In this document: piece after piece, positions 41,967 through 58,850 of the stretch
How positions within the stretch are numbered: the first letter of the stretch is position 1
Layout of the letters: every line of letters begins with the position of its first letter
Assembly: GCF_018343775.1 (NCBI RefSeq)
Contig: NZ_CP074349.1
Coordinates: 2,222,001-2,286,000, forward strand
Reading direction: 5' to 3'
Length of the DNA: 64,000 bases
Origin: Pseudomonas cichorii
GTDB taxonomy: Bacteria; Pseudomonadota; Gammaproteobacteria; Pseudomonadales; Pseudomonadaceae
The notes under the pieces: model-generated
The model's database searches: none
The model's input: the letters and a program-made list of their open reading frames with translations, nothing else
What the model was told of the DNA's origin: nothing
Position numbers and translations under genes: made by a program

Positions 41967-42557
41967 TCAAACCACGCCATACACCTGCTGCAACCGGTCA
42001 CGATAGAAATCAAACGCCGCCCGTGCCCCGGCAATCACTTCCTTGTCCTGTTCTTCAGTCAGTTCCAGTGCATCCAGTTGCTGGACGAAGGCGCGCCAGT
42101 GCAGGGCGCGGCCGTCTTCGTGGGCGGCAAGGTGGCGGGCGCCGTGGGTTTCGTTCAGGTCGAGCTGGCGAGTGTGTTTGAACAGGATGGCAGCGCCCAG
42201 GTTCGAGCCTTCGCTGCAATACAGCCAGCCCAGTGCATGATAGACCGAGCCGATGGCGGCCGGTGCCGGGGTGTGCGGCGTGGGGATCTGCAGATCGTTC
42301 AGGTCCGCTTCGACGGCCGGGAAGCGGTCGAGCTGGCTCAGGCCTGGCAGCAATTCGTTCAGGTTTTCATTGAGGTAGACCGGTTGCAGCGCACCATGAA
42401 AACCATGTTGCAGGCGCAGGAAGTTGCCGTAGTTTTCAATGCTCTGAAAGGGCGCGTTGCGCATGACCAGATCGTTGATGTTGTCGTGTTCGGTATGAGT
42501 CCCGGCTTTCAGTCGTTTGGCGCGTGATAGCGGTTCTGCAAGGGTGGCGGTGGACAT
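41967..42557 (-). CDS. Biliverdin-producing heme oxygenase
   Basis: A 196-residue helical protein of the bacterial heme oxygenase family. The proximal-helix region is KRLKAGTHTEHDNIN, with a candidate axial His, and the distal helix carries the flexible glycine motif (SEGSNLGAAILFKHT). It opens heme to biliverdin, carbon monoxide and iron, for iron release or as a bilin source for a bacteriophytochrome. No phytochrome or heme receptor gene is next to it. It lies 85 bp after the M50 fusion gene on the same strand, so it could be the last gene of that long unit or separate. Confidence 0.86.
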   Translation of the reverse strand: MSTATLAEPLSRAKRLKAGTHTEHDNINDLVMRNAPFQSIENYGNFLRLQHGFHGALQPVYLNENLNELLPGLSQLDRFPAVEADLNDLQIPTPHTPAPAAIGSVYHALGWLYCSEGSNLGAAILFKHTRQLDLNETHGARHLAAHEDGRALHWRAFVQQLDALELTEEQDKEVIAGARAAFDFYRDRLQQVYGVV

Positions 42558-42642: not shown

Positions 42643-44766
42643 TCAGAATGCGGCTTCGCGAATCAATACGGCGACCACATTCTGCCAGGCGTAAAGCAGC
42701 GGGCTGCGCGTCTCGGCGTCGATGCTGACGCTGCCTCTGAGGACCTGTTCGATGTTCTGCGATGCTCCGCGCGGTTGCAGCAGAACCCGATACACCGCCT
42801 GTTCCGGGACGGGTTCGTGTTCCTTGTTCAGACGGGTGGCGATGCCGCCCTGATAATCCGAAGCCAGTTCGGGAGCCGAAGCCAGTTTGCGCACGGCGGT
42901 TTGCTCGACTCGGGTTACCAGCAGCTCGATGCGCGGACGAGACAAGTCCTCGGGGTAGAACCAGGCGCGATTGTCTGCGGCGATGCGGTGCATGTCCTGT
43001 TCACTGACGAAAGCCTCGATCAATGCGCTGCCCGGCGCGGCGAGGGTCGCCAGCCATTCTCCGGGCGGCAGCCATTGGCCGACAGCCAGGGGCTCGGCCA
43101 TATCGACAAGGGTGCCGTCGAAGGGTGCACGAATCTGCAATTGATCGATCTGGCTGCGCAAGGCGTTGTAGCGCTCCTGAGCGGTGTCGAGTTCACGCTG
43201 CACCACCGGCAAGCGGGTGGCGGCGTCCTTGTCCATGCGCTGGAAGCTCAGTTGCCAGCTCAGGGTCTTGATCTGGAGTTCAAGGTTGCTCAGTTCATGA
43301 GTCAGCGTCGGTGCTTCAAGGCGAAACATCGGTTGATCGCGCTCGATAATCTGACCGGGCCGCACATTGATGCTTTGCAGCCGGGCACCGTTGGGCACCA
43401 GCAAGGGTGCCTGCTGGCTGGCGCGCAATAGCGCCGGAGCCTGGACGCTGCTGCGCCATGGCAGGCAGACGCCCAGTAGCAGAGCAGCGAGTACAGCGCA
43501 GGTGATCAGGGTATTGCGGTTCATGCGGTAGTCCTTGCGGCGTCCGGCCCAGTGTTGCAACTCGCGAAAGATCGGCATCAGGATAAAAACGCCGATCTCG
43601 ACGGCGAACAGCAGCAGCCCCAGCAACTTGAATGCGAAGTGATAGACCAGCAGGGCAATGCCCAAAAACAGGAAAAAGCGGTAGATCCAGGTGCCGAAGG
43701 CGTAGAGCAGCAGCGTACGTTCCAGCCACGGCTCGAACACTTCCGGGCGCGGGTCGTCCAGGCCGAACAGCCACTCGCGCAGACGCCAGCGGGCCAGCGC
43801 AAAACCACGGCTTTGCAGATTGGGAACGTCCAGCGCATCGGACAGCAGAAAGTAGCCATCGAAACGCATCAAGGGACTTAGGTTGATGGCCAGGGTCAGA
43901 ATCCAGGTGGTGGTCGCCAGCATGAAGGCCGCACTGCGCAACGGGCCGTCAGGCAAGAAACTCCAGAGCAGGGTCGCCCAGGCGGCCAGTGACAGCTCCA
44001 CCAGCATGCCTGCCGCGCCAATCGCCAGGCGCTGGCGGCGTGCAGTCAGGCGCCAGGCCCCGGTGGTGTCGGTGTACAGCACCGGCCACATCACCAGCAA
44101 GGCCACGCCCATACTGGCTACCCTGCAACCGAAACGCTTGCAGGTGTAAGCATGTCCCAGTTCGTGAAGCACCTTGGTACAACCCAGGGTCATGGCTGCC
44201 AGCAGCGCGCCTTCAAGGCTGAAGAAGTGCAGGAAGGTATGCACGAAGACGTCCCACTGACGGGCAACCAGGATCAGTCCGGTCAGGGCTGCCATCAATG
44301 TCAGAAGGGCAAAGCCGCGACTCATCAACGGTCGCACCCACGGCAATGTACGCTCCAGAAACGCATCGGGATTGACCAGCGGAATACGCACGAACAGGTA
44401 GTTGTGCATTAGCCAGCCGGCCCAGCCATGTTTGTTCTGCTGGCTGATCTTGAGCAGCCTGTCGTTGCCTTCCGGCCCTTGGACCTGGACCAGTTGCAGG
44501 TTGCCGAGAAACGCCGCAAAGCCTTTGATGTCCTGAATATCCAGGGTCAGGGATGTCTGGGTGTTGACCGCATCCAGCACCTTTTGGCTGTTGCCGGTTT
44601 CCCAGCGGGCCAGCATTTCCACTTCGGCCCAGCCAAGCCGGAAGAACTGCCCGCGAGCAGGGTCTTCAAGGGTCCAGCTGGGCGAGCCGTCGCGCAGTCT
44701 TGGGCCGCGATGCAGTTTCAGTTCCTGGCGCAGTTGTGGCAGGTCCATGCTTGAAGGGCTGTGCAT
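42643..44766 (-). CDS. PqqD-like/M50 membrane protease/HlyD adaptor fusion
   Basis: About 707 residues in three parts. Residues about 10-100 look like a PqqD-type winged helix (WTLEDPARGQFFRLGWAEVEMLARW). About 145-400 is a polytopic M50 (site-2 protease) domain with HELGH at 201-205 and LSPLMRFDGYF, supplying the third zinc ligand. After a further helix near 415 comes an HlyD-type adaptor (LLVPNGARLQSINVRPGQIIERDQPMFRLEAP, a coiled-coil arm, then IRAPFDGTLVDMAEPLAVGQWL). The ATG complementary to 44764-44766 has GGGG nine bases upstream. Inner-membrane component of the putative export cluster; may cleave or hand over the giant LEPR-XLL protein. Confidence 0.84.
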   Translation of the reverse strand: MHSPSSMDLPQLRQELKLHRGPRLRDGSPSWTLEDPARGQFFRLGWAEVEMLARWETGNSQKVLDAVNTQTSLTLDIQDIKGFAAFLGNLQLVQVQGPEGNDRLLKISQQNKHGWAGWLMHNYLFVRIPLVNPDAFLERTLPWVRPLMSRGFALLTLMAALTGLILVARQWDVFVHTFLHFFSLEGALLAAMTLGCTKVLHELGHAYTCKRFGCRVASMGVALLVMWPVLYTDTTGAWRLTARRQRLAIGAAGMLVELSLAAWATLLWSFLPDGPLRSAAFMLATTTWILTLAINLSPLMRFDGYFLLSDALDVPNLQSRGFALARWRLREWLFGLDDPRPEVFEPWLERTLLLYAFGTWIYRFFLFLGIALLVYHFAFKLLGLLLFAVEIGVFILMPIFRELQHWAGRRKDYRMNRNTLITCAVLAALLLGVCLPWRSSVQAPALLRASQQAPLLVPNGARLQSINVRPGQIIERDQPMFRLEAPTLTHELSNLELQIKTLSWQLSFQRMDKDAATRLPVVQRELDTAQERYNALRSQIDQLQIRAPFDGTLVDMAEPLAVGQWLPPGEWLATLAAPGSALIEAFVSEQDMHRIAADNRAWFYPEDLSRPRIELLVTRVEQTAVRKLASAPELASDYQGGIATRLNKEHEPVPEQAVYRVLLQPRGASQNIEQVLRGSVSIDAETRSPLLYAWQNVVAVLIREAAF

Positions 44767-44769
44767 CAC

Positions 44770-46104
44770 TTACAGCCCCACATGGATACGCAAGGCTGCC
44801 AGAGGTCGGCGCAACAGGTAGTAGAACAACACCGTGGGTTCGGCATACAGCTTGGCACTGCCCTTGAGGCCGATGCGGATACGTGGGTCCTGGGTATCGA
44901 AGGTGCCTTTCAGTCGATAGGCCATCACGCCATCGGGGTTGACGCTGGCGCGGTAGCCGATGCGTTGCAAGGTCGCATCCAGTGGCGCCGTGGGGTCGGT
45001 GTTCAGGAACAGCTTCACCGGTGTCTGCGCTTGCAGGGCAATGGCATCAGCGACGGGGAGCTGGATTTCCAGATCGGCATCCTGAGGTTCGGCGATCAGC
45101 ATGATGCGTTCTCCCAGATTGACGGGACGACCGATCCAGTCACTGGGATCATCGAAAATCGCGATGCCGTCACGGGGAGCTTCAATGCGCAGGCGATTGA
45201 GGTTGGCGGTGTAGAACTCGACATCGTTTCTGGCCTGCTCGCGTCGTCCTTGCAGGGTGGCCAGTGTGGCTTTACTGCGTTCGTCGAACAGCGCCTGTTG
45301 CTGAGCCTGACGCAGTTCGGCATCGGCCACGGCGTAGGCCTGTCGAGCCGACTCCAGATGATTGCTTTGCTCGCGGGTATCGAGTTGTACCAGCGGTTGG
45401 CCTGCGGTGACTCGCTGGTTCGGCTGAACCAGAATGCGGTCCACTACCGCAGCCAGCGGCGCACGCAGCACGGCCGGGTCCCGTGCAACGATTTCCGCCG
45501 GAGCCAATACCGACTGTCGCACCGGTAGCATCAATAATGCGGCTACGGCCAATCCGGCAGCCCACCACAGGCGTTTGCGTCTGCGCAGTGGCTGGCGTTG
45601 CGGACGATGCCTCAACAGGCTGCTCCAGGCGTGGCCATAGCAATCCAGCAGCAAGGGCGCCAACAGCCGTTCGGTGTCGCGCAGCGGGACATCGCGACTC
45701 AAGAGCAACGCGCCCAGAAGCGGGCCGCCCGCCTTTTGCAACGGCAGCCAGATCAGGCGCTGTGCGCAATACTCGCTCCATTGCGGCTGGTCTTCGGTGG
45801 CCACCGTCGAAGCGGTCAGTTCATGGATATGCCGGGCATTGTCGGTCTGTTCCCAGCGACGGCACTGGCGGTTCAGCCAGGTCACCATGGGAGCCTGCTG
45901 CTCCACGACGGCCAGCCCCGAGAAGCCTTGTACGGTCTGGGTGTCGCAGCGCCAGAGGATGGCTTGCCGGTATTCGAGCAGCGAGTGGCTGTCGTTGAGC
46001 AGAATGAAGCCCAACGCTTGCAGGCTCTCGGCAGCGCGGACTTGCTGCTCCAGTTGGACCAGCAAGGTCAGGTGTTCCATGGAGCGGCTTTGCGCCTGAA
46101 TCAT
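44770..46104 (-). CDS. HlyD-family adaptor with N-terminal GAF-like domain
   Basis: A 444-residue protein. Residues about 20-170 resemble a GAF domain (LQALGFILLNDSHSLLEYRQAILW, then IWLPLQKAGGPLLGALLLSRDVPLRDTERLLAPLLLDCYGHAW). A basic stretch (RPQRQPLRRRKRLWW) precedes one membrane helix (about 183-202). The periplasmic part is an adaptor with the usual biotinyl-lipoyl halves (VVDRILVQPNQRVTAGQPLVQLD and IEAPRDGIAIFDDPSDWIGRPV) around a coiled coil. The cytoplasmic GAF domain may sense a ligand or act as docking surface. Overlaps the preceding gene by four bases. Confidence 0.82.
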   Translation of the reverse strand: MIQAQSRSMEHLTLLVQLEQQVRAAESLQALGFILLNDSHSLLEYRQAILWRCDTQTVQGFSGLAVVEQQAPMVTWLNRQCRRWEQTDNARHIHELTASTVATEDQPQWSEYCAQRLIWLPLQKAGGPLLGALLLSRDVPLRDTERLLAPLLLDCYGHAWSSLLRHRPQRQPLRRRKRLWWAAGLAVAALLMLPVRQSVLAPAEIVARDPAVLRAPLAAVVDRILVQPNQRVTAGQPLVQLDTREQSNHLESARQAYAVADAELRQAQQQALFDERSKATLATLQGRREQARNDVEFYTANLNRLRIEAPRDGIAIFDDPSDWIGRPVNLGERIMLIAEPQDADLEIQLPVADAIALQAQTPVKLFLNTDPTAPLDATLQRIGYRASVNPDGVMAYRLKGTFDTQDPRIRIGLKGSAKLYAEPTVLFYYLLRRPLAALRIHVGL

Positions 46105-46865
46105 GACTCACCCGGAGCCGTCAGTTTCGCCACGCCGCTCATGCCCGGCAGCAGGCTTTCATCGCTCTGGGTGATGCGCCCGAATACTTTCACCGACTGG
46201 CTGACCGGGTCGATGATCGCGCCGATCCGGCTGATCTGCGCCGGATAGTCCTTGCCGCTTTCGTCCAGATGCACGCTGAAGTTCTGGCCCGGTTTGAGCC
46301 AGCGCAACCAGTTGGACGGCACGATCAGTTCCAGCTCATAGGCGCTGTCATCGTAGATGCTCAGCAGCTCCTTGCCTTCCGCGACGTACTCCCAGCGTTG
46401 CGCCTTGCGTGCCGCGACTCGCCCCGAGAAGGGCGCAGTGATTGCGCAGCGTCCCAGAATCGCCTGGTTGATACCGCTTTCGGCCCTGGCAACTGCCATG
46501 GCCGCCTGGGCCTGGGTCACATCGGCGACGCTGATGGAGTTGAGCTTGTCGAGGCGGTTGGCGACTTCAAGCTTCTTGCGTGCGCCTTCCTGCACGGCGG
46601 CGGTACGATTCAACTGCGCCTGATAGACACTGCAATCGAACGCCACCAGCCGGTCGCCTTTCTTGAATCGCTCACCTTCCTTGATGGACAGTTCGGTGAT
46701 CTTCCCGGCGACTTCGCTGGACAGCGTGGTCTGGGCAATGGCGCTCAGTTGCACGCGCAACACTGGCTGGGTATCAGCAGCATGCGCCATGTTGGCGGCA
46801 ACGCTGATCAGAATCGCCAGCCAGACTCGCGAATGCTGTCTGATGGAGGCTGGTTCAGCGTGCAT
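46101..46865 (-). CDS. Periplasmic adaptor of HlyD/RND type
   Basis: A 254-residue adaptor starting at the ATG complementary to 46863-46865, with a signal peptide ending in ANMAHA. SSEVAGKITELSIKEGERFKKGDRLVAFDC and ITAPFSGRVAARKAQRWEYVAEGKELL form the split lipoyl domain; the coiled-coil hairpin between them is short. It ends with the barrel region. It has no membrane anchor or lipobox, so it is probably soluble in the periplasm and assembles with the two anchored adaptors. Overlaps the TolC-like gene by 11 bp and the next adaptor gene by four. Confidence 0.85.
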   Translation of the reverse strand: MHAEPASIRQHSRVWLAILISVAANMAHAADTQPVLRVQLSAIAQTTLSSEVAGKITELSIKEGERFKKGDRLVAFDCSVYQAQLNRTAAVQEGARKKLEVANRLDKLNSISVADVTQAQAAMAVARAESGINQAILGRCAITAPFSGRVAARKAQRWEYVAEGKELLSIYDDSAYELELIVPSNWLRWLKPGQNFSVHLDESGKDYPAQISRIGAIIDPVSQSVKVFGRITQSDESLLPGMSGVAKLTAPGES

Positions 46866-48552
46866 TTGTCGTGCTTCCCTGTTCCTTGAGCTCAACGCCT
46901 TGCAGCGAACCCAGACTGTCGAACATATCGACCCTGGCAATCGGCGCGATGGCGACCGGGCTGACAGGGGCCGGGCGGCTTTGGGCTGCGGTATTCAGCG
47001 GTGTTTCAAAACGCGGGATATGCACCTGACCGCTTGCCAGGTCAACTGCATTGCGGGCGATGGCCTGAGTCAGTTCGGCAATGCTTTCGCCTGCCAGACG
47101 CTGGGGCAGGGGATCGAGCCCGGCAGCCTGCTGAATGGCGCCGTAGGTGGCTTGCAGCTCTGCGAAGCTGCGATCACGGGTGCGTTTCGCCAACACGGTT
47201 TCGGTTTCGATCCGTACCTTCTCCAGCAGGCTCTGAGCCTGGCTGCTATAGGCACTTTCACTTTGCGCCAGAATGCCGTCCTGCAAGCGTTGCAGCTCGT
47301 TGGAACGCTCGAACAACTGGTGGGCGCGCTGGTATTGCTGCCAGGCCACGTTGACCTGGGTCAGCACCGCCATGCGCACCGCCTGACGACGCAGTTCGGC
47401 CACGGCTTCGCGGTTTTCGCCAGTCTTCTTGATCGACGAATAGGACAGCACGCTCATCAGGTTCCAGCTGATCTGCATGCCGGCGTCGGCCCATTGTTCA
47501 TTGACCAGATAGCTGTTGCTGTCACGGTTCAGGCCTGCGAACAGATTGACGCCGGGCAACAGCTTGAGCATTGCCATGCGGGTTTCCAGCACCGCATTGC
47601 GGGCCTGATAGGTTTCTTCGCGGATTTCCGGGCGTTGGGTCATGGCCAGGGTTTCCAGATCGTCCAGGCTGTAGGCCACGGCGGGCGCAGTCATGCTGGC
47701 ATCGTCCGGGACGGCCAAGGTGTACTGGCTGGCAGGCGGAATGTTCATCAAGCCTGCAAGACGTGCCTTGGCCAGCGCCAGTTCCCCATCCAGCACTTCC
47801 AGCTGACGAATCATTTCCACCAGGCTTTTCTGGTAGCGCAGCGAGTCGATAGGCGTGAGCAGACGCTCGCGTTCGGTGACACGAGCCTGATCCAGCGCGG
47901 CGCGGGCCTGAACCAGTGTGGATTGCACCTGCGGCTTGAGGCGTTGCGCCGTGGCAGCATCCCAGTAAGCGGTACGTACTTGCTGGATGATGTCGGCAAT
48001 CACCCGGCGACGACGTTCTTCAGCCGCCAGACTCTTGTTGGCCTGGACCTTGGCGCCGAAGTAGCTGATACCGAAATCCAGCACGTTCCACGACAACTGC
48101 AAGTCAGCCGTATGGCCGGAACGATCAGAACTGGTGGAAGGCTCAAGGGATTGTGTCCGGGTGCGGACCGATTCACTGGAGGACCCGGCGACATTGTCCC
48201 GGCCACGCCAGCCTGCGCGAGCGGCCAGTTGCGGCAGCATCGACAGGTTCTGGGTATCGAGCAGACCTTCTTCCATGGCCTGTTCCATCAGGCCGAGGCG
48301 TTGTTGCAGGTTGTATTTCACCGCTCGCGCCATGGCTTCGTTGAGGCTGACCGGTCGGCTCAGGGGCTCTTGCCGGTCGAACATCTTGCTGCGGTCGGCA
48401 CTGGCCTGGGCCAGTTGCTGGTCCAGGCTGACAGGTTCGGGTTTGACCGCACAGGCGCTCAGGCCGGCAATGATGCAGCCGATGGTCAGGCACAGGACGG
48501 TCTTGCGCAGCACAAGGCCTGGCAGTCGCTGTTCTTGGGTGATTCTGGACAT
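46855..48552 (-). CDS. TolC-family outer-membrane lipoprotein
   Basis: About 565 residues. The ATG complementary to 48550-48552 is chosen because AGGGGAA stands nine bases upstream. The signal peptide ends in a lipobox (GLSAC), so the mature protein begins with a lipidated Cys. Two outer-membrane-efflux repeats follow, with long helices (LARARLAGLMNIPPASQ-type segments and PEIREETYQARNAVLETRMAMLKLLPGVNLFAGLNRDSNSY). It should form the outer-membrane duct of the export system made with the adjacent adaptors. Confidence 0.88.
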   Translation of the reverse strand: MSRITQEQRLPGLVLRKTVLCLTIGCIIAGLSACAVKPEPVSLDQQLAQASADRSKMFDRQEPLSRPVSLNEAMARAVKYNLQQRLGLMEQAMEEGLLDTQNLSMLPQLAARAGWRGRDNVAGSSSESVRTRTQSLEPSTSSDRSGHTADLQLSWNVLDFGISYFGAKVQANKSLAAEERRRRVIADIIQQVRTAYWDAATAQRLKPQVQSTLVQARAALDQARVTERERLLTPIDSLRYQKSLVEMIRQLEVLDGELALAKARLAGLMNIPPASQYTLAVPDDASMTAPAVAYSLDDLETLAMTQRPEIREETYQARNAVLETRMAMLKLLPGVNLFAGLNRDSNSYLVNEQWADAGMQISWNLMSVLSYSSIKKTGENREAVAELRRQAVRMAVLTQVNVAWQQYQRAHQLFERSNELQRLQDGILAQSESAYSSQAQSLLEKVRIETETVLAKRTRDRSFAELQATYGAIQQAAGLDPLPQRLAGESIAELTQAIARNAVDLASGQVHIPRFETPLNTAAQSRPAPVSPVAIAPIARVDMFDSLGSLQGVELKEQGSTTNAR

Positions 48553-48575
48553 TGTTGCGTTTCCCCTGAAAAAGA

Positions 48576-51500
48576 TCATGCGACGCGCTGGTCGTCTTGG
48601 GTCGCTGCGTTGGCGACGGTTTCGTTGGATTCGTTGTCCACGATCGAGAGCAGGCTTTCCAACAGGCTCTGGGCCTGATGAGCCAGGTTCAGGCTCGGCG
48701 CGCTGTCTTGCAGTCGGGCGCGCAAGGCCTGTTCCGGTATGGGCGCTTGTGGAGTGTTTGCAGGTGTTGGCCGGGTGGCTGCATCCTGAGGCCGTTCACC
48801 GGCCTCGATCTGGACGGGTGTGCGTTGTTCCTGACCGGAGCGGTCGCGGGTGATCAGCACCAGGTTCAGGCGTTGCGCGGCAGTCAACTGGCGGTTATCG
48901 ACAATCAGTTTGCCGCTGCGCGGGTCGAATCGAACCCAGCTTGGCAAGGGCAAACCATTACTCATGCGCAGTTGCGGGCTGCTCTGGTTGTTGGCGAGCA
49001 ACGACAGCGGCAGTTGCACTTCGCTGTTCCCGCTGCTGGCAGCATTGACCTGCATCTGCCAGGTTTCGCCCGGACGTGCCGACTGGCTGGAGGCCAGGGT
49101 GTCGCTGAGGATGCTGCTACTGCCGAGCAGTTGCTCGGTGACGCTGCGCTGACTCGATTCCAACCCCGTGGCGTCGGGCAGGACAGTGTTCAGCGTGCTG
49201 TTTATCTCTGCTGGCAAGCCGAGCGGGCTGATGCCCGGTGGCAAGGACGTTTCTGTTTGCCGGACTTCATTGAACCCGCTTGGGCGCAGCCCCATCAGCG
49301 GCGCGGATTGCGTTGCAACGATAACCGGCTCGGTGACGTTGGTTGTCGGGGTGCTGCTGCCGGTATCCACGTCGGTTGGCGGCGGTGTAATGACGGTACC
49401 GCCGTCTGTATCTGGCGGCGTTACTACAGGAGGTGCTACGACTGGCGGTGTCACTACAGGCAGTTCCACGACAGGAGGCGTCACCACTGGCGGCGTTATG
49501 ACGGGCGTGCTGGTTGCCGTGATTGCGATGGTAAAACTCGCGCTGTTCGAGTCCAGCAGCCCATCGTTGATACTGGCCGCCAGTTGCACCTGCGCAGGCG
49601 GTGTGTCGGCGCTGTTGAGGTAGGTCAGGTGTTGCAGCACCGACTGCGCCTGTGCCTGGCTGATATCGCCGGTAAAGGTGATGGTCAGGCGGCCAGCGCT
49701 CTGGCTGAACGTGGCGATGGCGGTGTCGTTGAGCAGGATCTGGCTGCCATCGCTGGACAGGGTAAGCGTTGCAGAATCTTGCAGGCCAAAGCGGTCTTCG
49801 GCGCTGGCACCGTCCTGGCGCGCCACGGTGAGGGTGGCCCCTTTGTAATTGCCTGTGCCCTCGTTCAATGCATCCAGCTCGGCATCGCTGACAAGCCCGT
49901 TAGGCGCGAGCAGTACGGCATCGCCACCCTGAGTGAAGTGCGGGGCGCTGGTCGGGCTGCTCAAGATCACCACATCCGAACCTGACCACTCGCTGCCCAA
50001 GGCATACAGGCTGCCATCTGTGGCGCTGACGAGGTTGTTGAAGCCTGTCGATGACGAATAGGCACGAACAAAGGTCAAGGCACCGCTGGTGGCGTCTCGG
50101 CTGTACACCAGCAGGCTCGGATCACTGCCTTCGTGGGCAAGATAAAAAGCGCTGCCATCGGCACTGAGGGTTATATCCGCCAGTGAATAGACACTTCTCA
50201 GCCCGTCCCTGAGGGTGCTGGTCAGCGTCAGGGTGCCATCGGCGTTGCGGCTGAAAACCCGGATCGAGTTGCTGTTCTTGTCCGAGACATAAAGAAAGTC
50301 GCCCGCGCTGGACAGGGCAAGCCCGCCGATCGAACTGAGGTTTTGACCGTTGCCCAGTGCTGTCAGTGAACCCACAAAGCTGAGTGCGCCGGTGGTTGTG
50401 TCGCGGCTGAATATAGCGATGCCACTGTCCCAGCTATTGCTGACATAGACCGAGCGGCCGTCGCTGGAAATCACCACGTCCGAGCTTTGGCCAATACCGT
50501 CCGACAGATGCCCGGATTGAGTCAGGCCTCCCTGAGCATTGATGGTGAAGGTCGTGATGCCGCTGTTTGAGCTGTCGGCGCTGACGGCATACAACGACCT
50601 TCCATCGGCGGACACCACCATTTGCCCAAAATAGTTACTGCTTGTGGCGTTGCTGGCGGCAATGCCCATATAACTGAGCGCCCCGGTGGTGACGTCGCGC
50701 TGATACAGGGTGATGGTCGAAAGCGCACCTGTCTCGGAAGTAGCCTCGAAACCGGCCACATACAGAAACCTTCCATCCACCGACAGCGTGACCGAGGATA
50801 CCCGGTCCATACCTTCCAGGAAGACGTCCCGGTCGCTGAAATACTGGTCGTCGCTGAAGCTGCCTTGCTCGACCAGGCCGTCTGCTGTTCTGGCGTAGAT
50901 CGTCAGGGTCTTGCCGGCCACGATATAGACGAACTTGCCATCACTGGAAGTGGCCATGGCTGAAGGTGCCGAGTCCACGCTGCCCGGTGTCAGTTGGGTG
51001 GGTTGGGTCGGGTCGGTGATGGCGGGTGAGGTCAGCACCGTTCCCGGATTCGGGTTGCTGATGCCGGGTGCGGTATTGGCAGTGACATTCACTGTGGAGG
51101 CAATGTTCAGGTCGCTGACGTCAGTTCCGCCATCCAGCGTGCCGCCGCTGTCCTGAATGCTCACCAGCGTTACGGTACGGCTGCCCAGGGTCGGTGCCAG
51201 GCTGGCATTGCTGTAACGGATGCCGTCTATCAGGGTTTGCGCCGCTTCAGTGCTGATGCCGCTGACCGGGGTGATAGTCAGCGTGGCCGTGTCTGTCGAC
51301 AGGCTGACGGTGTAGGTGTAATCGCCGACCGTTTGCGTGCCGTTCACCAGTTCCACAAGGGTGCCATTGATGTTCAGGCGTTCCTGGCTGCCATCGCTCA
51401 GGCCGGTTATTTCCAGACGCAACACTATGATGGATTGACCCTGTTCCACCGTGGAAATCTGCGTGTCGCTGAACAGCGCCGTGTTATTGCCAAAACTCAG

Positions 51501-54194
51501 GGTCGGGTCGAGGGCACTGGCGGTCAACTCTGGCGCGTCGTTGATTTCGGTCACGGTGATGGCAATGGTATGTACGGTCGATGTCAGACCGTCGCCATCG
51601 TTGATCGACAGGTTCAGGCTGACCTGGCTGCCTGGATCGCTGTTTTCATTGGCATAGGTAATCTGCTTGAGAACCTGATTGGCATCGGCGGCGCTGACCG
51701 GCTGGCTGGCCGTGAAGGTCAGCACCAGTGCGCCGTCTGTCAGGTTGAAGCTGGCAATGACGTTGCCGTCCTTGAGCACTTGCTGGCCATCGGCGGACAG
51801 CGTAAAGCCGTTGCCTTCCTGAAAACCGAAGATATCGGCTGCGTTGGCACCTTCGCTGCGCACGATACGGATGCTGGCGTCGCGGTAATCGCCATCGCTG
51901 TCCAGTTCGACATCGCTGAAGCCTGTGTCTGCGAGCAGTGAAATCGCTGCCGCTTTTTCGGTGTAGGCCAGGTTTGTCGGTACGTCACTGAGCAGCGGTG
52001 CGCTGTTATCGCGCATGGTCACGGTGGAGGTCAGGTTCAGCGCTGTGCTGTCGATGCCGCCATTGGCTGTTGTGCCGTTGTCGCGAATCAGTGTCAGGCC
52101 GACCACCCGATCAACGCCGGTGATGGTGGTGCTGTCGTTGTAATAGCCGATGCCGTTTACCAGCGCCTGCGCATTGGTCACGCTGAGGTTGCCGCCACTC
52201 AAACCGATACTGGCGGTTGTGCCGCTGACGCTGACCACATAACTCAGGCCACTGCGGGTGGTGCCGGTATTGCCTTGGGTGAGGGTGATGCGTGTGCCGT
52301 CAACGACCAGCACTTCGTTGGTACCGTCCTGTATGTCGGTGACGCTCAGGTCCAGGCCGCTGACCGACTGGGCTCTTTCGCCGGTATCGATGACAGTGTC
52401 CTGAAACACAGCGACCGGGTTGCCTTGGGCGGAGTATCTGGGATCGGTGGCGGTGGTGGTCAGAGTGGGGGCGTTGTTGATGTCCACCAGACGCACTTCC
52501 ACGTTCAGTGAGGTGCTGGCGCCCTGGCCGTTGTCGAACGCCATTACCATGACCGCCAGGCTTCCGGCATCCGAACTGGTGTTGCTGTAGCCGACCTGCT
52601 GGAGTACCTGATTGGCCAGCGCGGTGCTGACCTGGCCGGTAAAGGTGATGCTCAGGCTGGAGCCATTGACTGTCAGGTTGGCGATGGCCGTGCCGCCGTT
52701 CAGGATTTGCGAACCGTCACTGCTCAAGGTCAGGCTGCCGGTGGGGATAAAGCTCAAGGTGTCTTCGGCGTTGTCACCGCGTTGCGGCGTGACGCTGAAG
52801 CTTGCGCCGTTATAGTCACCATTACCGTTGTCGAGGGCGTCCAGGGTTGAGTCGCTGACCACTGCATCGCTCAGCTTTTGTGCGGTCGTGCCTTCCAGGT
52901 AGCGGGTGCTGGCTTCTTGCAGAACGCTGATGCCCGAGCCCGTGACAATCACGCCGCCATCGGCGCTGACCTGAATCGCGCTGGCGTCGCTCTGGCCACC
53001 GGCTGTGCTATTGAGCAGCACCAGACCTGACGTCGTGGCGCTGTAGCGATTGATGGTGCCGTCGCTGAGAGTGGCATAAAGCGTACTGCCGTTACTGCTC
53101 AGGGCCGTTGAAGTGATATTGGCCTGGCTTATCGAGTTCTGGACGACAAAGGACTGGCCTTCGACCCGGAACGTGACAATGCCTTCAGAGGTGGTTACGT
53201 AGAGGTTCTGGCCATCGGGCGAGACATTGATCTGGCTCGGCGCCTTGAGCGAAACCGTCGTGCCGGCGCTGTCCTGCTGACCATCGCGAATGTAGAACGG
53301 CGAGCCCAGGTTGCCATCGGCATCGCGTTGATAGGCGATCAGGGTATGGGGTGGGGAGAAGGTCTGGGTTGTTACGAATACGTAATCTCCCCGGCTCTCC
53401 ATGGCCGATATGGCGAACATGTAAGGTGGGCTCCATGACGTGTTCTCGACCAGATTCAGTCGCGTCAGACTGCCGCTGGCGGTATCACGGCTGAAGACAT
53501 AGATCCCTTCGTTGCCGCTATCGACGGCATATACCGACTTACCGTCGTCCGAGATTTCCAGTGTTTCTATCGTGAGGATGTAATGGCTTTCAAGGAAGAC
53601 AAGGCTTCCTGTGGCTGGATCGCGGTTGAATACGGCAAGCGTGTCCGAATAGGACCTGCCGTTTGCACCGCTCATAAGGAGCGTTTCGCCATCCGGGCTG
53701 ATCTTCAGATCAATGATTAAAGTCAGCTGAGTGTCGCTGGCCGTCAGGGTGTTGCTTAGCGTCAACGCGCCAGTCTCGGTGTCACGGCTGAAGATCGCCA
53801 GCTCACCTGTACTGCTGGCTGCGTACAGGGTCTTGCCATCACTGGACAGTTCGGTTTGCGCAATATTGCTCAGGCCGCTGATCGTGTTCAGGGTTTCCAG
53901 GCTTGTCAGAGCGTCCAGACTCAGGTGGGCACCGTTATCGGTCGCCAGCGCTGTGGTGCGCTGGCTTGTGGTGGCGTTTTCCTGATCATTGCCTGAAGTG
54001 CTGCTGTTCTCATGAGCAATGCTGGTCGTGGAGTTGTCTGCCGTTTTATCTGCTGCCGGACTGGCGCTCTGGGTTTCGCTTGCAGCAGCGACTTCCGTCG
54101 CCGTGGCGACCGCCGCTGCATCGAACATCATCCGGGGTTCGAGCGCCAGATAGAGTCGCTGGAGGCGGGGACGGGCAGGGGAACGCTCAGTCAT
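48576..54194 (-). CDS. Giant LEPR-XLL surface protein with beta-propeller and cadherin-like repeats
   Basis: A 1872-residue protein. The N-terminus has LYLALEPRMMFDAAAVA, with LEPRMMFD at residues 18-25, the LEPR-XLL motif that marks many giant exported proteins; there is no classical signal peptide. Order: Thr/Ser-rich linker (about 30-85), a YncE-like beta-propeller (about 90-425), four cadherin-like repeats of about 150 residues ending in motifs such as DINNAPTL and EINDAPEL (about 430-1040), a second propeller (about 1060-1410), one more repeat (about 1415-1555), a proline-rich PPVVTPPVV linker (about 1560-1608) and a C-terminal Ig-like domain (about 1700-1810) with an acidic tail. No RTX nonapeptides are seen. 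Likely an adhesin; its stop overlaps the upstream in-frame end of the TolC-like gene. Confidence 0.82.
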   Translation of the reverse strand: MTERSPARPRLQRLYLALEPRMMFDAAAVATATEVAAASETQSASPAADKTADNSTTSIAHENSSTSGNDQENATTSQRTTALATDNGAHLSLDALTSLETLNTISGLSNIAQTELSSDGKTLYAASSTGELAIFSRDTETGALTLSNTLTASDTQLTLIIDLKISPDGETLLMSGANGRSYSDTLAVFNRDPATGSLVFLESHYILTIETLEISDDGKSVYAVDSGNEGIYVFSRDTASGSLTRLNLVENTSWSPPYMFAISAMESRGDYVFVTTQTFSPPHTLIAYQRDADGNLGSPFYIRDGQQDSAGTTVSLKAPSQINVSPDGQNLYVTTSEGIVTFRVEGQSFVVQNSISQANITSTALSSNGSTLYATLSDGTINRYSATTSGLVLLNSTAGGQSDASAIQVSADGGVIVTGSGISVLQEASTRYLEGTTAQKLSDAVVSDSTLDALDNGNGDYNGASFSVTPQRGDNAEDTLSFIPTGSLTLSSDGSQILNGGTAIANLTVNGSSLSITFTGQVSTALANQVLQQVGYSNTSSDAGSLAVMVMAFDNGQGASTSLNVEVRLVDINNAPTLTTTATDPRYSAQGNPVAVFQDTVIDTGERAQSVSGLDLSVTDIQDGTNEVLVVDGTRITLTQGNTGTTRSGLSYVVSVSGTTASIGLSGGNLSVTNAQALVNGIGYYNDSTTITGVDRVVGLTLIRDNGTTANGGIDSTALNLTSTVTMRDNSAPLLSDVPTNLAYTEKAAAISLLADTGFSDVELDSDGDYRDASIRIVRSEGANAADIFGFQEGNGFTLSADGQQVLKDGNVIASFNLTDGALVLTFTASQPVSAADANQVLKQITYANENSDPGSQVSLNLSINDGDGLTSTVHTIAITVTEINDAPELTASALDPTLSFGNNTALFSDTQISTVEQGQSIIVLRLEITGLSDGSQERLNINGTLVELVNGTQTVGDYTYTVSLSTDTATLTITPVSGISTEAAQTLIDGIRYSNASLAPTLGSRTVTLVSIQDSGGTLDGGTDVSDLNIASTVNVTANTAPGISNPNPGTVLTSPAITDPTQPTQLTPGSVDSAPSAMATSSDGKFVYIVAGKTLTIYARTADGLVEQGSFSDDQYFSDRDVFLEGMDRVSSVTLSVDGRFLYVAGFEATSETGALSTITLYQRDVTTGALSYMGIAASNATSSNYFGQMVVSADGRSLYAVSADSSNSGITTFTINAQGGLTQSGHLSDGIGQSSDVVISSDGRSVYVSNSWDSGIAIFSRDTTTGALSFVGSLTALGNGQNLSSIGGLALSSAGDFLYVSDKNSNSIRVFSRNADGTLTLTSTLRDGLRSVYSLADITLSADGSAFYLAHEGSDPSLLVYSRDATSGALTFVRAYSSSTGFNNLVSATDGSLYALGSEWSGSDVVILSSPTSAPHFTQGGDAVLLAPNGLVSDAELDALNEGTGNYKGATLTVARQDGASAEDRFGLQDSATLTLSSDGSQILLNDTAIATFSQSAGRLTITFTGDISQAQAQSVLQHLTYLNSADTPPAQVQLAASINDGLLDSNSASFTIAITATSTPVITPPVVTPPVVELPVVTPPVVAPPVVTPPDTDGGTVITPPPTDVDTGSSTPTTNVTEPVIVATQSAPLMGLRPSGFNEVRQTETSLPPGISPLGLPAEINSTLNTVLPDATGLESSQRSVTEQLLGSSSILSDTLASSQSARPGETWQMQVNAASSGNSEVQLPLSLLANNQSSPQLRMSNGLPLPSWVRFDPRSGKLIVDNRQLTAAQRLNLVLITRDRSGQEQRTPVQIEAGERPQDAATRPTPANTPQAPIPEQALRARLQDSAPSLNLAHQAQSLLESLLSIVDNESNETVANAATQDDQRVA

Positions 54195-54236: not shown

Positions 54237-55763
54237 TCATTCAACCAGCAGCACGCGATTGGCCTGGCTCTTGAGTTCATTGGCGATGCTGTCGAAAGCG
54301 GCCTTCAGATCACCGGGGGTGTCCGATGAGTTGCCTTCGATGACATGCAGGCGTTGGCCGCCGCCGGTGCAGGGATTCAGCCAGTCGGCAGGTGTCACGT
54401 AGTGGCCGCCGGGGCTGTTGATGTCTGTGGTATTGCGAACCACGGCGTAGAAAACGATTCCGTTGTCGCTGAAGGATTGGCAGGTGTCGAGGTAGTTGCG
54501 CAGGGTTTCCTTTTCCTCACGCCACGCAGAACCTGCATTCCAGTTCATCAACAAGACAATGGCCTTGCGATTGGGACCGCTGCCATCGGCGTTGAAGTCC
54601 AGCGGGTATGTGCTGTCGCCCCAGCCGTTGCCGCCACGCCAGTTGGGTGACAGGGTACTGCCTGCCCATACCAGCCCGGGCAGGGGATGGATCTGCCAGT
54701 CCCCTCTGATCTCGCGCACGCGCGTTTCGATCTTGCTTCTGCTGGCTTCCAGAGGCAGCAAGGGGGCATTGGGGATGGTGTGGTCGGTCATGATCGTCTG
54801 ATCGGCACCGTCTGCATCCACTGTGCTGAGTGAGAACATGCGGCGCTCGGAAACGACGGGACGATTGTCTTCCGGGTTCAGGTACATCATGTTCGCGTTC
54901 AGACGCATCCTTGACTCGGCAGGCGAGGCAATCCAGTCATAGGTCTTGTCCCGGTAGTTGTCTCCCCTGTAGAAACTCTGGCGCCTGGCTCTGCGGTCCG
55001 GAAACATGATATTGCTCAAGTCGCCGTACTGCCGGTAGAAGCCCCGGGTGCGCAGGCTCGGGATCGGATCTTCAGTGGTCAGTGCATCCGGAGTCGTCCA
55101 CTCCTTGAGCCGTGGTTGACTGTTTCGGCTGTGATCGGGGTCGTACAGATTGACATCGTTGCTGAAGGGAATAATGGCTACCCGCAGGTTTTCTTTCTCC
55201 TCGCGGGTATTGCCATTGCTGTCCTGGCCGAACAGTTCGCCCAGAAAGTGTTCCGTTGCGTCCATGTGCAACTGTGCGTCCGGGCTGATACCGGAGAATA
55301 TCGAGGCAAAGTTGACAGACGAATCAATCGCCAACGCCACCTCCAGCGGCTTGCTGATCAACTCTGCCGTGGAATGCACGGTCAGGTCCTGACTGGCATT
55401 ACCGCTGACTTGTGGGTCGTGACGGGACGTCGCGGTTACCCGGTAGGTGGGATTGCTGTCGGCGCTGCGTCCTTCTTCGACGGTGACTTCGCCCAGGTTA
55501 TCCAGAAGCTGCGCATCCATGCCCAGGTTCTGGCGCACATAGGCGGTGGCAAAACCGGTGGGGGCCTTGCTGACGTTTTCATCGCCGTCGGCATTGGCCC
55601 GGCCGACGGCCAGGGCGGCGGCGTCGGTCGCGCGCTTGAGTTGCGAGGCGTTGCCGGTCATGCGCGTCACGTCTATCGCGTAGGCACTGGCCAGTAACAG
55701 GCCGCCAGTGGCAAGGATCATGAAGGGCGCGACGTTACCGCGCTGAAGCCTGCGATTGAGCAT
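54237..55763 (-). CDS. tadG: TadG-like pilus assembly protein with von Willebrand-like domain
   Basis: A 508-residue protein. LQRGNVAPFMILATGGLLLASAYAIDVTRM is a pseudopilin-like N-terminal helix; the body resembles a vWA domain. The metal-binding DxSxS motif reads DSSVN, so the last Ser is Asn and metal binding may be weak. It anchors or finishes the Tad pilus at the outer membrane in other bacteria. Separated from tadF by 116 bp that contain a possible internal promoter, and only 42 bp upstream of the LEPR-XLL gene. Confidence 0.85.
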   Translation of the reverse strand: MLNRRLQRGNVAPFMILATGGLLLASAYAIDVTRMTGNASQLKRATDAAALAVGRANADGDENVSKAPTGFATAYVRQNLGMDAQLLDNLGEVTVEEGRSADSNPTYRVTATSRHDPQVSGNASQDLTVHSTAELISKPLEVALAIDSSVNFASIFSGISPDAQLHMDATEHFLGELFGQDSNGNTREEKENLRVAIIPFSNDVNLYDPDHSRNSQPRLKEWTTPDALTTEDPIPSLRTRGFYRQYGDLSNIMFPDRRARRQSFYRGDNYRDKTYDWIASPAESRMRLNANMMYLNPEDNRPVVSERRMFSLSTVDADGADQTIMTDHTIPNAPLLPLEASRSKIETRVREIRGDWQIHPLPGLVWAGSTLSPNWRGGNGWGDSTYPLDFNADGSGPNRKAIVLLMNWNAGSAWREEKETLRNYLDTCQSFSDNGIVFYAVVRNTTDINSPGGHYVTPADWLNPCTGGGQRLHVIEGNSSDTPGDLKAAFDSIANELKSQANRVLLVE

Positions 55764-55816
55764 GAAGCGGTCATTCCTGAGGGGATCAACAGGCCGCTAT
55801 GACAGCAGCCTTGAGG

Positions 55817-55844
55817 TTTATACAAGAATAAGAATCTTTCCCAA
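55817..55844 (-). promoter_or_regulatory. Candidate sigma-70 promoter before tadG
   Basis: On the minus strand TTGGGA and TATAAA are separated by 16 bases. The element lies about 55 bp before the tadG start in the only sizeable gap of the right-hand operon, so tadG and the export cluster could be transcribed separately from the rest of tad. Confidence 0.4.
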
Positions 55845-55879
55845 CTAGCAGCAAGGCTGGCTCCATTAAGAAGGCTTAA

Positions 55880-56458
55880 TCAACTCTGGTCCGTGTCCAG
55901 ACCGGCCTCCTGCGCCAGATCTTCAGCCAGTTGCAGGTCGCTGTTCTGCATGCGGTCCAGAGCGACGCTTTGCAGGATTCTGCCGCCAAACAGGTCGCTG
56001 CTCATGGCCAGTTCGGTACTGGCCTGGCAGGTCTGCACGATCAGCATCGAGACCGTGTCTTGCTGTGGCTCTTCGGAGGAAGATGGTGTGGGGCTGCTTT
56101 CGGGCAGCTCGCCGCTGTACTGGCTGCTGGCGAAAGGGTCATCGCACAGCCCGGTGGCATTGCCCCGTTGCAGATGCCAGACCACTTCACCGCTGCGTCG
56201 GACCTGAGCGATGAAAATCTGATAGTTGTCCTTACGCGGGCCACGTATGTTCTCGATCAGCTGTTCGAGGCCGCCACGGGTCAGCCGATCCTGAATCGAC
56301 AGGATCGAGGAGAGCGTCGAGGTGCTGCGCTCCATGTCGGTTTTGGCACGGCTGAGGTTGTAAAGGTCGGCGCAGATAAAACCCGTGCCCAGGATGATCG
56401 GCAGGGCCAGTGCAGTTTCCAGCAGGGCGCTGCCGCGTTGCTGCGTACGCTTGATCAT
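55880..56458 (-). CDS. tadF: TadF-like pseudopilin
   Basis: A 192-residue minor pseudopilin-like protein. QQRGSALLETALALPIILGTGFICADLY shows a prepilin-type site, cleavage after Gly with Glu at +5, then a hydrophobic helix. The prepilin peptidase TadV is expected to process it together with TadE. Overlaps tadE by four bases. Confidence 0.83.
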   Translation of the reverse strand: MIKRTQQRGSALLETALALPIILGTGFICADLYNLSRAKTDMERSTSTLSSILSIQDRLTRGGLEQLIENIRGPRKDNYQIFIAQVRRSGEVVWHLQRGNATGLCDDPFASSQYSGELPESSPTPSSSEEPQQDTVSMLIVQTCQASTELAMSSDLFGGRILQSVALDRMQNSDLQLAEDLAQEAGLDTDQS

Positions 56459-56964
56459 TGCTCGTTACCAATCAGGGCGGTGTTATAGAGGTTGCCCAGC
56501 ACCTGCCGGTACTCATAGGTAAAACGGTCGGGCAGGGCGAGCAGTTTGGGCAGGGCGGTGATGTAGGCTTGTTGCAAGGCCACCTTGACGACAATCACCG
56601 GCTGGCTGCCGTCGGGCAATTCAGTGCCGGACTCATCGGCGTTGGCATCGTCCCCGCCCATGACTTGCAAGGCGCTGTAGGACGTTGCATCGACCTGGAT
56701 TTCGTTGGCCTTGAGGTAGCCGTAGGACGCCAGCAGAATCCGCTCGGTGATCAAAGGCTGAAGCTGTTCGGTGGCCATCAGGTCGATTTTCTCCCTGCGC
56801 AGGCCGCCCAGCGCCGAGTCCAGCGCCAGATTGCCTATGATCACCACCAGCGCGATGCGCGCCAGCTCGAAGAACATCATCAGGCCGATCAGGATCACCG
56901 GCATGATCAGCGCGGTCTCCACCGCCGTTACGCCGCGTTGGCTGTAGGGGCCTGCCCGCTTCAC
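56455..56964 (-). CDS. tadE: TadE-like pseudopilin
   Basis: A 169-residue pseudopilin. SQRGVTAVETALIMPVILIGLMMFFELARIALV has the cleavage site after Gly and Glu at +5 followed by a long helix, as in TadE. Required for Flp pilus assembly in other systems. Overlaps both neighbours by four bases. Confidence 0.85.
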   Translation of the reverse strand: MKRAGPYSQRGVTAVETALIMPVILIGLMMFFELARIALVVIIGNLALDSALGGLRREKIDLMATEQLQPLITERILLASYGYLKANEIQVDATSYSALQVMGGDDANADESGTELPDGSQPVIVVKVALQQAYITALPKLLALPDRFTYEYRQVLGNLYNTALIGNEQ

Positions 56965-57869
56965 TGCGGTGTGCCCAGTGCCAGCGGACGCTGGCTGGCA
57001 GCGAGCAGTTCGGTTGCGGCAGGGGAGCCGGCATGGATGCGGGCGACACTGGCCTGCAAGGCTTGCAGCAGATCTTCGGTATTGGCATCGGGCAGGTTGC
57101 GGCTCAGGGTCTGACGCGCCTGATCGTTATCGCCCTTGAGCAGATGCGCCAAGGCCAGGTTCAGCACCAGGCTGGGTGTGGCATTGAGGCTGGCGCCTTG
57201 CAGAAGAGTGATGGCCTGCTGAGGCTGGTTGCTGCTCAGGTAGGTCATGGCCAGATTGTTCAGCGCGGGCTGGTTGGACGGGTCGATCTCCAGTACGTGT
57301 TGAAACAGCTTCTGAGCCTGCTCGGTCTGGCCAAGGCTGTTGCTGGCCACGCCCAGACCATTGAGGCCTTCGGTGCTGTCCGGCTGGGCCTTGAGCGCGC
57401 AATTGAAATCCTTCACCGAAGCCTGAAGCTGATTCAGTGCCAGACGCGCACGGCCCATGCCCAGGCAGGTAATCAGGCTTTCGGACGGGCTGAGATTGTC
57501 GGCACCGCCAAGGGCGTGTCGGGCACGGCCGTAGAGTTCCAGTGATTGCTGCGGCTTGCGCACCAACGCCGCAACACTGGCGTATTCCAGCAGTTCCCGG
57601 GGGCTGAGTTGCTGGCGCTGGTCCATCTTGGCGTAGACCTCGGTGGCCGCTTCGATACGCCCGTTATCGCGCAGCACGCGGGCCAGCCTCAGTGCTTCGG
57701 CGCTTTCCTTTTTGCTCAGGGGGGCGTTGGTCTGTGGCTGGGCATTGTCACGGTCGATGCCGGGCAGGCTGGAGCAGCCGCTTGCGCCGATGATCAGCAG
57801 CGAAAGCAGGGCGAGGCGTGAAAGGGACAGAGGTGAGGACACGGTATTCTCCAGAGACAAGGCAGGCAT
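56961..57869 (-). CDS. tadD: TadD, TPR lipoprotein of Tad pilus assembly
   Basis: A 302-residue lipoprotein: the signal peptide ends in IIGASGCSS, with lipidation expected at Cys32. Several tetratricopeptide repeats follow (GLNGLGVASNSLGQTEQAQKLFQHVLEIDPSNQPALNNLAMTYLSSNQPQQAITLL). TadD acts as pilotin-like partner of the secretin. It starts in the stop codon of tadC (one-base overlap). Confidence 0.87.
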   Translation of the reverse strand: MPALSLENTVSSPLSLSRLALLSLLIIGASGCSSLPGIDRDNAQPQTNAPLSKKESAEALRLARVLRDNGRIEAATEVYAKMDQRQQLSPRELLEYASVAALVRKPQQSLELYGRARHALGGADNLSPSESLITCLGMGRARLALNQLQASVKDFNCALKAQPDSTEGLNGLGVASNSLGQTEQAQKLFQHVLEIDPSNQPALNNLAMTYLSSNQPQQAITLLQGASLNATPSLVLNLALAHLLKGDNDQARQTLSRNLPDANTEDLLQALQASVARIHAGSPAATELLAASQRPLALGTPQ

Positions 57870-58822
57870 CAGTTTTGCGCCAGAGCGCGGACCAGGCGGA
57901 TCATCGCCGGGGCGCCCATGACCGCGATGATCGGTGGCAGGATCAGGACCATCAGTGGCACGCTCATTTGCGCGGGCAGCTTTCCGGCTTTTTCTTCAAG
58001 GCCCAGCACCAGGGTCTTGCGACTTTCATCGGCGATGGTGCGCAGTGCCTGGGACAGGGGAGTGCCGTAGCGCTCGGCCTGGATCAGGGTTCCCACCATG
58101 CTTTCGATTTCCCGGACGCCCGTGCGCTCGGCGAGGTTGAGCAATGCCCGTGAGCGGTCACTGACGATTTGCAGTTCGGCGAAGGTGTAGCGCAATTCAT
58201 CCGCCAGTTCGGGAGCCGACAGCGCCAGTTCCCTGGCCACCACTTGCATGATGCGGCCCAGCGGCAGGCCGGCTTCGGCGCAGATCACCATCAGGTCCAG
58301 GCCATCGGGAACCGAACGGGCCATGCGCCCGCCGCGCCGCGCCGCCCGCCATTTCAGCCAGGCTTCGGGCAGGGTGGTGCCGACAAACAGGGCGATCAGG
58401 CCCATGGCCAGACCCTTGAGGCCGAAGCGGCTCTGGGCATCCAGAACACCAAACAGAACGATGCCCAGAAACAGCAGGCCGTTGGCATATTTGGCGACCA
58501 TCAACAGACCCAGGCTGGCCTGGGCACGAAAGCCCGCCATGCTCAGCAGGCGGTTGAGGTGTTGGCGATCCTGTGCCGTGCCCGCCAGATGCTCGCCGGC
58601 CGAAGCCAGTGGCAGCAGTAGACGTTTGGCATTGGCGGACAGAGCCAGTTGGTCGGTGCGCAGGATGTTGGCCTGGACCTGTTGCTGGCGATTGTCCTCG
58701 CTGCGGCCCAGGCGCAGGTCCAGGCTTTTCTCCGAAAGACCCAGGTACCAGCCGAGCAGGCCCAGGCCGGTGCCGGTCAACATCACCCCCAGGGCGAGCA
58801 GAATGAGCGTTTCGTGGGTCAT
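57869..58822 (-). CDS. tadC: TadC, inner-membrane platform protein
   Basis: A 317-residue type II secretion F-domain protein from the ATG complementary to 58820-58822. The T2SF domain has DGLDLMVICAEAGLPLGRIMQVVARELAL and ERYGTPLSQALRTIADESRKT. With TadB it forms the membrane platform driven by TadA. A TTG six codons earlier is a less likely start. Confidence 0.9.
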   Translation of the reverse strand: MTHETLILLALGVMLTGTGLGLLGWYLGLSEKSLDLRLGRSEDNRQQQVQANILRTDQLALSANAKRLLLPLASAGEHLAGTAQDRQHLNRLLSMAGFRAQASLGLLMVAKYANGLLFLGIVLFGVLDAQSRFGLKGLAMGLIALFVGTTLPEAWLKWRAARRGGRMARSVPDGLDLMVICAEAGLPLGRIMQVVARELALSAPELADELRYTFAELQIVSDRSRALLNLAERTGVREIESMVGTLIQAERYGTPLSQALRTIADESRKTLVLGLEEKAGKLPAQMSVPLMVLILPPIIAVMGAPAMIRLVRALAQN

Positions 58823-58850
58823 GGCTGTTGTTCTCCGCAAAAGCGAGCGT

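Follow-up and report, generated by a model that had tools for sequence, protein, structure and literature searches.

The window analysed here is a 64,000-nucleotide stretch (G000:C1:2222001-2286000) of the 5.98-Mb genome of Pseudomonas cichorii. Positions 42643-54194 hold five adjoining genes, all on the minus strand and all verified in the ORF list and by Pfam, in the domain order described by the initial annotation (Table 1). The genes are tightly packed, with successive overlaps of 4, 11 and 4 bp, while the GAF-HlyD and fusion genes abut. Across the cluster Pfam identifies OEP, HlyD_3 in three proteins and Peptidase_M50, and it finds no ABC ATPase among the five genes, in agreement with what had been claimed.

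Table 1 Genes and features of the five-gene cluster, in positions of the window
Feature	Position	Strand	Details
Giant LEPR protein	48576..54194	-	1872 aa
TolC-type outer-membrane efflux protein with lipobox	46855..48579	-	574 aa; OEP PF02321, E 2.6e-26
Soluble periplasmic HlyD-type adaptor	46101..46865	-	254 aa; HlyD_3, E 1e-21
GAF-like domain, one TM stretch (residues 182-203) and HlyD adaptor	44770..46104	-	444 aa
PqqD-like / M50 intramembrane protease / HlyD fusion	42643..44769	-	708 aa, GTG start
LEPRMMFD signal motif, giant residues 18-25	54120..54143	-	Sequence; alignment A3; profile match
PqqD-like (RRE-like) N-terminal domain, fusion residues 1-95	44485..44769	-	Model and profile comparison
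HELGH zinc motif, fusion residues 202-206	44152..44166	-	H202, E203, H206 invariant in 61/61
FDG second metal-ligand motif, fusion residues 303-305	43855..43863	-	D304 invariant in 61/61
Periplasmic HlyD/MacA-like adaptor arm of the fusion, residues 438-690	42700..43458	-	

Upstream of the cluster, in 54237-61210 on the same (minus) strand, a Tad-domain gene comes first after a 42 bp gap, followed by further genes that by eye resemble those of Tad/Flp pili, and the giant may be co-transcribed with these upstream genes. The next gene downstream encodes a heme oxygenase (41967-42557, minus strand), which also adjoins the cluster in L036, a locus whose group recurs in nine core loci (those of the branch to which the window belongs). 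The same genome carries a second core cluster, L022 (G000:C1:5543001-5563000), with a fusion 40% identical to that of the window, a LEPRMLFDGA giant of its own, a gene for a sulfotransferase between fusion and giant, and adjoining chemosensory genes. In L113, a locus related to L022, a phage-tail-collar protein is encoded between fusion and giant.

The fusion protein, 96% identical to a Pseudomonas cichorii counterpart, retains both of its metal-binding motifs. HELGH lies in the membrane protease domain, where it had been annotated, FDG is likewise intact, and H202, E203, H206 and D304 are invariant in all 61 aligned fusions (the window plus 60 of the best 80 of 282 loci). Alignment A4 covers these 60 of the 80 named loci, and A5 covers 50 of them. 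The M50 domain scores 28.7 bits with PF02163 against a cut-off of 27.2, its region models as helical, and the fusion profile matches MJ0392 (3b4r, E 1.9e-4). From its sequence, the invariant catalytic residues fit a predicted active protease. The C-terminal adaptor arm models as a structure resembling MacA and EmrA.

The N-terminal residues 1-92 of the fusion are modelled with a β-β-β-α-α-α topology, and alignment with the PqqD profile gives an hhalign probability of 52% for the window's subfamily and 93% for a sister subfamily, with all 11 controls below 1%. The Pfam PqqD model matches one of 61 fusion relatives (E 0.14). Foldseek and VIA, applied to the whole fusion model, return adaptors, biotinyl domains and similar structures with the PqqD-like part outside their coverage, so these matches speak neither for nor against a PqqD fold. 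The initial annotation had proposed that this domain could recognize the substrate, a prediction that gains support from the profile comparison and from the pairing of two fusion subfamilies with two LEPR variants described below. Among NCBIfam models the fusion matches that of the daptide M50 protease, NF041824, best, at 163.5 bits and below its 300-bit equivalog cut-off.

The remaining machine components are a TolC-type protein with an LSAC lipobox identified by eye, and two HlyD-type adaptors. In the soluble adaptor an ATG start precedes a signal-peptide-like stretch, while the longest ORF begins at TTG 46940. The second adaptor had been described as GAF-bearing and anchored: its model (pLDDT 94.5) places an N-terminal α/β region ahead of a single TM stretch, in keeping with anchorage, and GAF PF01590 matches 11 of 51 relatives, but the window's own protein has no Pfam match to GAF. 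A GAF domain in this position hints at regulation by a small ligand. Among the 80 named loci (the best 80 of 282), 53 display the complete set of four machine families, and 52 of these 53 have the order TolC, HlyD, GAF-HlyD, fusion on one strand; in many of the remaining 27 loci, the DNA ends before the cluster does.

The giant protein combines lactonase/β-propeller-like stretches with a tandem-95-like repeat, is net acidic and contains no cysteine (the mean over 41 giants is 0.60 Cys per 1000 aa), and hydropathy analysis finds no TM-like hydrophobic stretch in it. Its translation bears out the LEPRMMFD motif reported at residues 18-25. The motif, in full LEPRMMFDAA, is of the subtype LE[PQSA]RxMFD[GA]A, and the visible N-termini of giants near fusions share an ungapped LE[PQSA]Rx[ML]FD[GA]A segment. 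NCBI's model of the classical LEPR-XLL signal, NF012209, scores the giant at 13.4 bits by hmmscan and 18.6 bits in a six-frame search, against a curated cut-off of 17. We distinguish the window's variant, LEPR-FDGA, for which 33 signal sequences were aligned without gaps (A3) and made into a 40-aa profile. The window's signal scores 63.4 bits with this genome profile, of which it is itself a member.

A strict LEPR regex matches 21 of the 80 named loci (best 80 of 282), against 0, 1, 0 and 1 for control patterns, and a wider one matches 44 of 101 loci, against 0-1 for each of five controls; two of the wider matches, in L026 and L063, were judged to be chance given their length and surroundings. 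Visual inspection of 17 large ORFs added an LEQR variant that the strict regex overlooks. Four positions are invariant in A3, in part because the regex dictates them; the flanking preferences for L, M, A and ATA are independent of it. The N-terminus of the window's giant is less hydrophobic than the signal peptide of the neighbouring HlyD adaptor: in 10-residue windows it reaches 1.38, against 2.69 for the adaptor, and in 8- to 12-residue windows none of the 33 signal segments matches the adaptor's hydrophobicity. Over 19 residues, 4 of the 33 do reach it, so a weak Sec signal is possible; a cut-off of 1.6 over 19 residues is a poor signal-peptide test, as it overlooks the HlyD signal peptide too.

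A collection scan gave 282 confirmed loci, of which the best 80 were analysed; the titles of these 80 name Proteobacteria, Nitrospira, and Desulfo- and Geobacter-type bacteria. Within Pseudomonas, fusions of both clades (E<=1e-20) occur in 72 of 149 genomes. To relate signal and machine, the fusion profile (A2) and the signal profile (A3) were scanned on the same 299 proteobacterial genomes, with fusion I taken as at least 597 bits with A2, and all counts of fusion, signal and SecA-like genes in these genomes refer to the matches listed. LEPR-FDGA (E<=1e-3) is found in 55 of 59 fusion genomes, which span 23 families, and in none of 240 others, so that the signal is missing from four fusion genomes at this threshold. 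At E<=1e-2, 57 genomes have both signal and fusion, two have the fusion only, two (G231 and G299, with weak matches) the signal only, and 238 neither. Among 148 Nitrospirota genomes the signal occurs in 22 of 23 with the fusion and 0 of 125 without it, and 25 of 33 signal matches there lie within 20 kb of a fusion. The corresponding Fisher values, 8e-56 for Proteobacteria and 2.4e-25 for Nitrospirota, are too small because the genomes are related. Up to three candidates per genome were scored in the proteobacterial fusion and SecA-like searches, and up to seven in Nitrospirota.

Of the 107 signal matches listed in Proteobacteria, 52 are on the same contig as a listed fusion, 49 of them within gene length plus 10 kb, and the remaining 55 lie on a different contig from the fusion. 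The signal is visible in 31 of the 80 named loci (best 80 of 282); of the remaining 49, 40 belong to genomes that carry it (E<=0.05), and the nine without it are all MAGs. Since the training set of A3 consisted of signals found next to fusions, Nitrospira members included, adjacency is partly built in, but the training set does not explain the absence of the signal from genomes without a fusion. The association of signal and fusion, near-perfect in two phyla, is beyond chance. The initial annotation had made its reading depend on the conservation of the gene association in other genomes, and the association is conserved. The same result bears on a quite different reading, in which the fusion matures and exports a RiPP-type peptide and the giant is an unrelated neighbour. 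The daptide protease as best NCBIfam match (below its cut-off) and the PqqD-like domain would suit it; we strongly disfavour it as very improbable, since fusion and LEPR signal co-occur in two phyla, including those signals encoded on contigs other than the fusion's.

The classical LEPR-XLL giants have a machine of their own. NF012209, an NCBIfam model made independently of this analysis, gave 35 LEPR-XLL matches in open frames with a median of 7246 aa and a maximum of 19,427 aa. Beside such giants we find a second fusion subfamily, fusion II, in which H215, E216, H219 and D317 are present in 12 of 12 aligned proteins (A7, covering 12 of 13 sister loci). LEPR-XLL, counted at E<=1e-3 where not overlapping an A3 match, occurs in 28 of 31 fusion II genomes and in 0 of 268 others among the 299 proteobacterial genomes, after a targeted re-search; G311 (E 0.0023) falls just under the XLL threshold although its XLL gene adjoins the fusion. 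The targeted search covered 20 chosen genomes: in the nine XLL genomes without fusion II in the first scan, where up to three candidates had been scored, it found fusion II in 9/9 at >600 bits, while four fusion-I-only genomes gave cross-matches only, at <=354 bits. The 31 sister-type genomes thus comprise 22 from the first scan (G150, G182 and G311 also being in the targeted search) and nine from the targeted search; the remaining genomes whose candidate list was full lay outside the re-search.

Adjacency follows the same division. Among listed fusions, 49/107 FDGA signals lie near fusion I and 0/107 near fusion II, while 12/35 XLL signals lie near fusion II and 0/35 near fusion I. The two fusion subfamilies therefore pair with the two LEPR variants, FDGA with fusion I and XLL with fusion II. 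Three M50-HlyD matches of about 220-310 bits (G170:C133, G185:C119 and G204:C133) fit neither branch well and were excluded from the 31 sister-type genomes; these genomes have no XLL match at E<=1e-3 apart from A3 matches, and the three proteins perhaps represent a third subfamily.

Type I secretion requires an ABC ATPase together with an adaptor and TolC, yet no ABC ATPase recurs in 99 core loci. A motif regex finds ABC-ATPase-like ORFs in 12 of the 99, at scattered positions, the nearest being at 183 bp on the opposite strand (L104) and at 1361 bp on the same strand (L037). Clustering of conserved neighbours among the ORFs of the 99 loci gave labelled groups that are the cluster families; the unlabelled groups look like antisense frames from their strand and place, and four of these (L113, L036, L103 and L022) are by Pfam local neighbours or without a match.

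The TolC and HlyD parts could also serve type I secretion with an ABC ATPase encoded in trans, the M50 fusion being only an adaptor or processing subunit. Many giants also share a C-terminal motif, as a C-terminal signal would be shared: one like G[KR]xx[FL]xxQ[LMIF], usually placed 22-45 residues before the C-terminus, occurs by a looser regex in 27 of 44 TolC-linked giants (shuffles: mean 3.2, maximum 9), although this regex was composed after viewing the alignment and matches 10 of 112 control C-termini too, and some of the 27 matches (L041, L059) fall outside the aligned motif. The window's giant has neither this motif, which plays no part in our explanation, nor a Pfam RTX-repeat match. 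With the pairing tracking the N-terminal signal and the ABC-like ORFs of the 99 core loci scattered and none recurrent, we regard export by an ABC ATPase in trans as improbable.

The sister branch offers another lead. In 11 of 13 fetched loci a SecA-like gene encoding about 640-730 aa lies beside fusion II, with SecA_DEAD matches of E 1e-95 in L121 and 9e-18 in L138; GEGKT and DEAD are kept in 8 of 10 aligned proteins, the exceptions being L138 and L128 (L138:3971-5890 and L128:8741-10693), both beside fusion II and without GEGKT. The genome of L138 (G162) has three SecA-like genes. Defined as >590 bits, the next lower score of 531 being canonical SecA, SecA-like genes occur in 27 of 31 fusion II genomes against 1 of 268 others, and in 1 of 40 fusion-I-only genomes, among the matches listed. 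That one is G224 (G224:C108:2588-4510), in which three core-type matches took up the whole candidate list, so that fusion II was not scored, and which lay outside the fusion II re-search.

In alignments with SecA chains such as 1m6n and 3jv2 the SecA-like profile covers about residues 17-608, and the protein therefore seems to be without the C-terminal part, which, from the length and domain limits of SecA, we take to be the scaffold/finger region. As the SecA-like ATPase is encoded beside the sister fusion, the most promising lead on the energy source is a SecA-type motor, and this ATPase is a candidate motor of the sister system. It is absent from 100 of 100 core loci and the window's genome shows one SecA only, with no dedicated second copy, so the core branch would have to use housekeeping SecA or something else.

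Taken together, these data make it reasonably probable, in our judgement, that the cluster serves specifically to export and process one giant surface protein bearing an N-terminal LEPR-FDGA signal. The roles proposed for its genes derive from family membership, and the following steps are accordingly conditional. First, the PqqD-like domain of the fusion would bind the LEPR segment in the cytosol, by analogy with PqqD-type domains, which bind RiPP leader peptides; homology and the specific pairing point this way. Second, the unfolded chain would cross the inner membrane, powered by a motor of the SecA type: housekeeping SecA in the core branch and the dedicated SecA-like ATPase in the sister branch; this is the weakest step. 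Third, the M50 domain, to judge from its invariant catalytic residues, may cleave the leader either inside the membrane or next to it. Fourth, the three HlyD arms (of the fusion, GAF-HlyD and soluble HlyD) and the TolC-type protein would form, as their families suggest, a conduit to the surface.

The initial annotation had proposed a tripartite export route for the giant in which the protease fusion replaces the ABC transporter. The association of the LEPR giant with the M50-HlyD fusion stands, but that the fusion substitutes for the ABC transporter as translocator is unproven, a cut near the LEPR motif, which the annotation had also suggested, is likewise conjectural, and to our knowledge M50 proteases are not known as channels. 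The same parts could also act in retention and release as in the Lap system: the giant would be exported by other means, its N-terminus plugged in TolC/HlyD, and the M50 protease would cut the LEPR segment, either freeing the giant or anchoring it. An N-terminal signal with an adjoining protease and an adhesin-like, cysteine-free giant are what such a scheme would lead one to see, but no other exporter recurs near the cluster among the 99 core loci, the LEPR motif is much shorter than the LapA retention module, and the sister system's own SecA-like ATPase suggests translocation beyond mere release. We consider retention and release unlikely, though less so than an ABC ATPase in trans, and return to dedicated export.

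The cluster resembles several known systems without coinciding with any. Like type I systems such as HlyB-HlyD-TolC and LapBCE, which exports LapA, it joins HlyD-type adaptors, a TolC-type protein and a giant cargo, but it has no ABC ATPase, its conserved signal is N-terminal, and one adaptor is fused to PqqD-like and M50 domains. MacAB-TolC and EmrAB-TolC are alike in that the adaptor arms of the fusion and GAF-HlyD model on MacA and EmrA, and differ in that the cluster encodes no MacB, RND or MFS partner. The N-terminal LEPR motif on very long proteins is shared with NF012209 (also termed LEPR-8K), whereas the window's motif pairs with the other fusion subfamily. RRE-dependent RiPP maturation, including that of daptides, also combines a PqqD-like domain with an M50 protease; here the substrate is a giant protein, an HlyD arm is fused on, and the NF041824 score is below cut-off. 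Finally, the dedicated SecA-like ATPase beside the sister giant recalls the accessory Sec system (SecA2/SecY2) of Gram-positive adhesins, but LEPR systems are Gram-negative and include the HlyD/TolC parts and the M50 fusion, and no second SecA was seen in the window's genome.

In the literature, the sections of a tripartite-system review that treat adaptor partners name ABC, MFS and RND transporters, with no reports for PACE, MATE and SMR (PMC8277102). The BapP cluster, in the passages of PMC12153261 that describe it, is an ABC-type system and hence not the present one. A LEPR-XLL giant is mentioned in passing in PMC10868602. The signal/fusion system is not described in the passages searched of the open-access literature, including PMC12710340, PMC7470986, PMC11575400, PMC12114271 and PMC13106123, subscription papers lying outside this scope. 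The cluster resembles tripartite export but lacks, within its own loci, the ABC ATPase of type I secretion, and we rate its composition as categorically new within that open-access literature.

Whether it represents a new class of protein secretion is a more tentative matter. Here a PqqD-like/site-2-type protease/adaptor fusion would read the N-terminal LEPR signal, a SecA-type pump without the C-terminal part of SecA would move the chain, and TolC would provide the exit; we hold this possible but rather less than even in probability. That the two branches (FDGA with fusion I; XLL with fusion II and the SecA-like ATPase) share one mechanism across phyla belongs to the same reading, and we hold it no more firmly.

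LEPR-XLL is an NCBI domain name to which the passages searched of the open-access literature assign no export route. If our reading is true, it would account for the exit of some of the largest bacterial surface proteins from the cell, by a secretion route outside type I that uses the same adaptors and outer-membrane channel without an ABC ATPase, and with leader recognition resembling that of peptide natural products. The signal/machine pair in two phyla, in two branches with matching variants, makes the question of export testable, and the SecA-like gene of the sister branch provides a concrete clue to its energy source.
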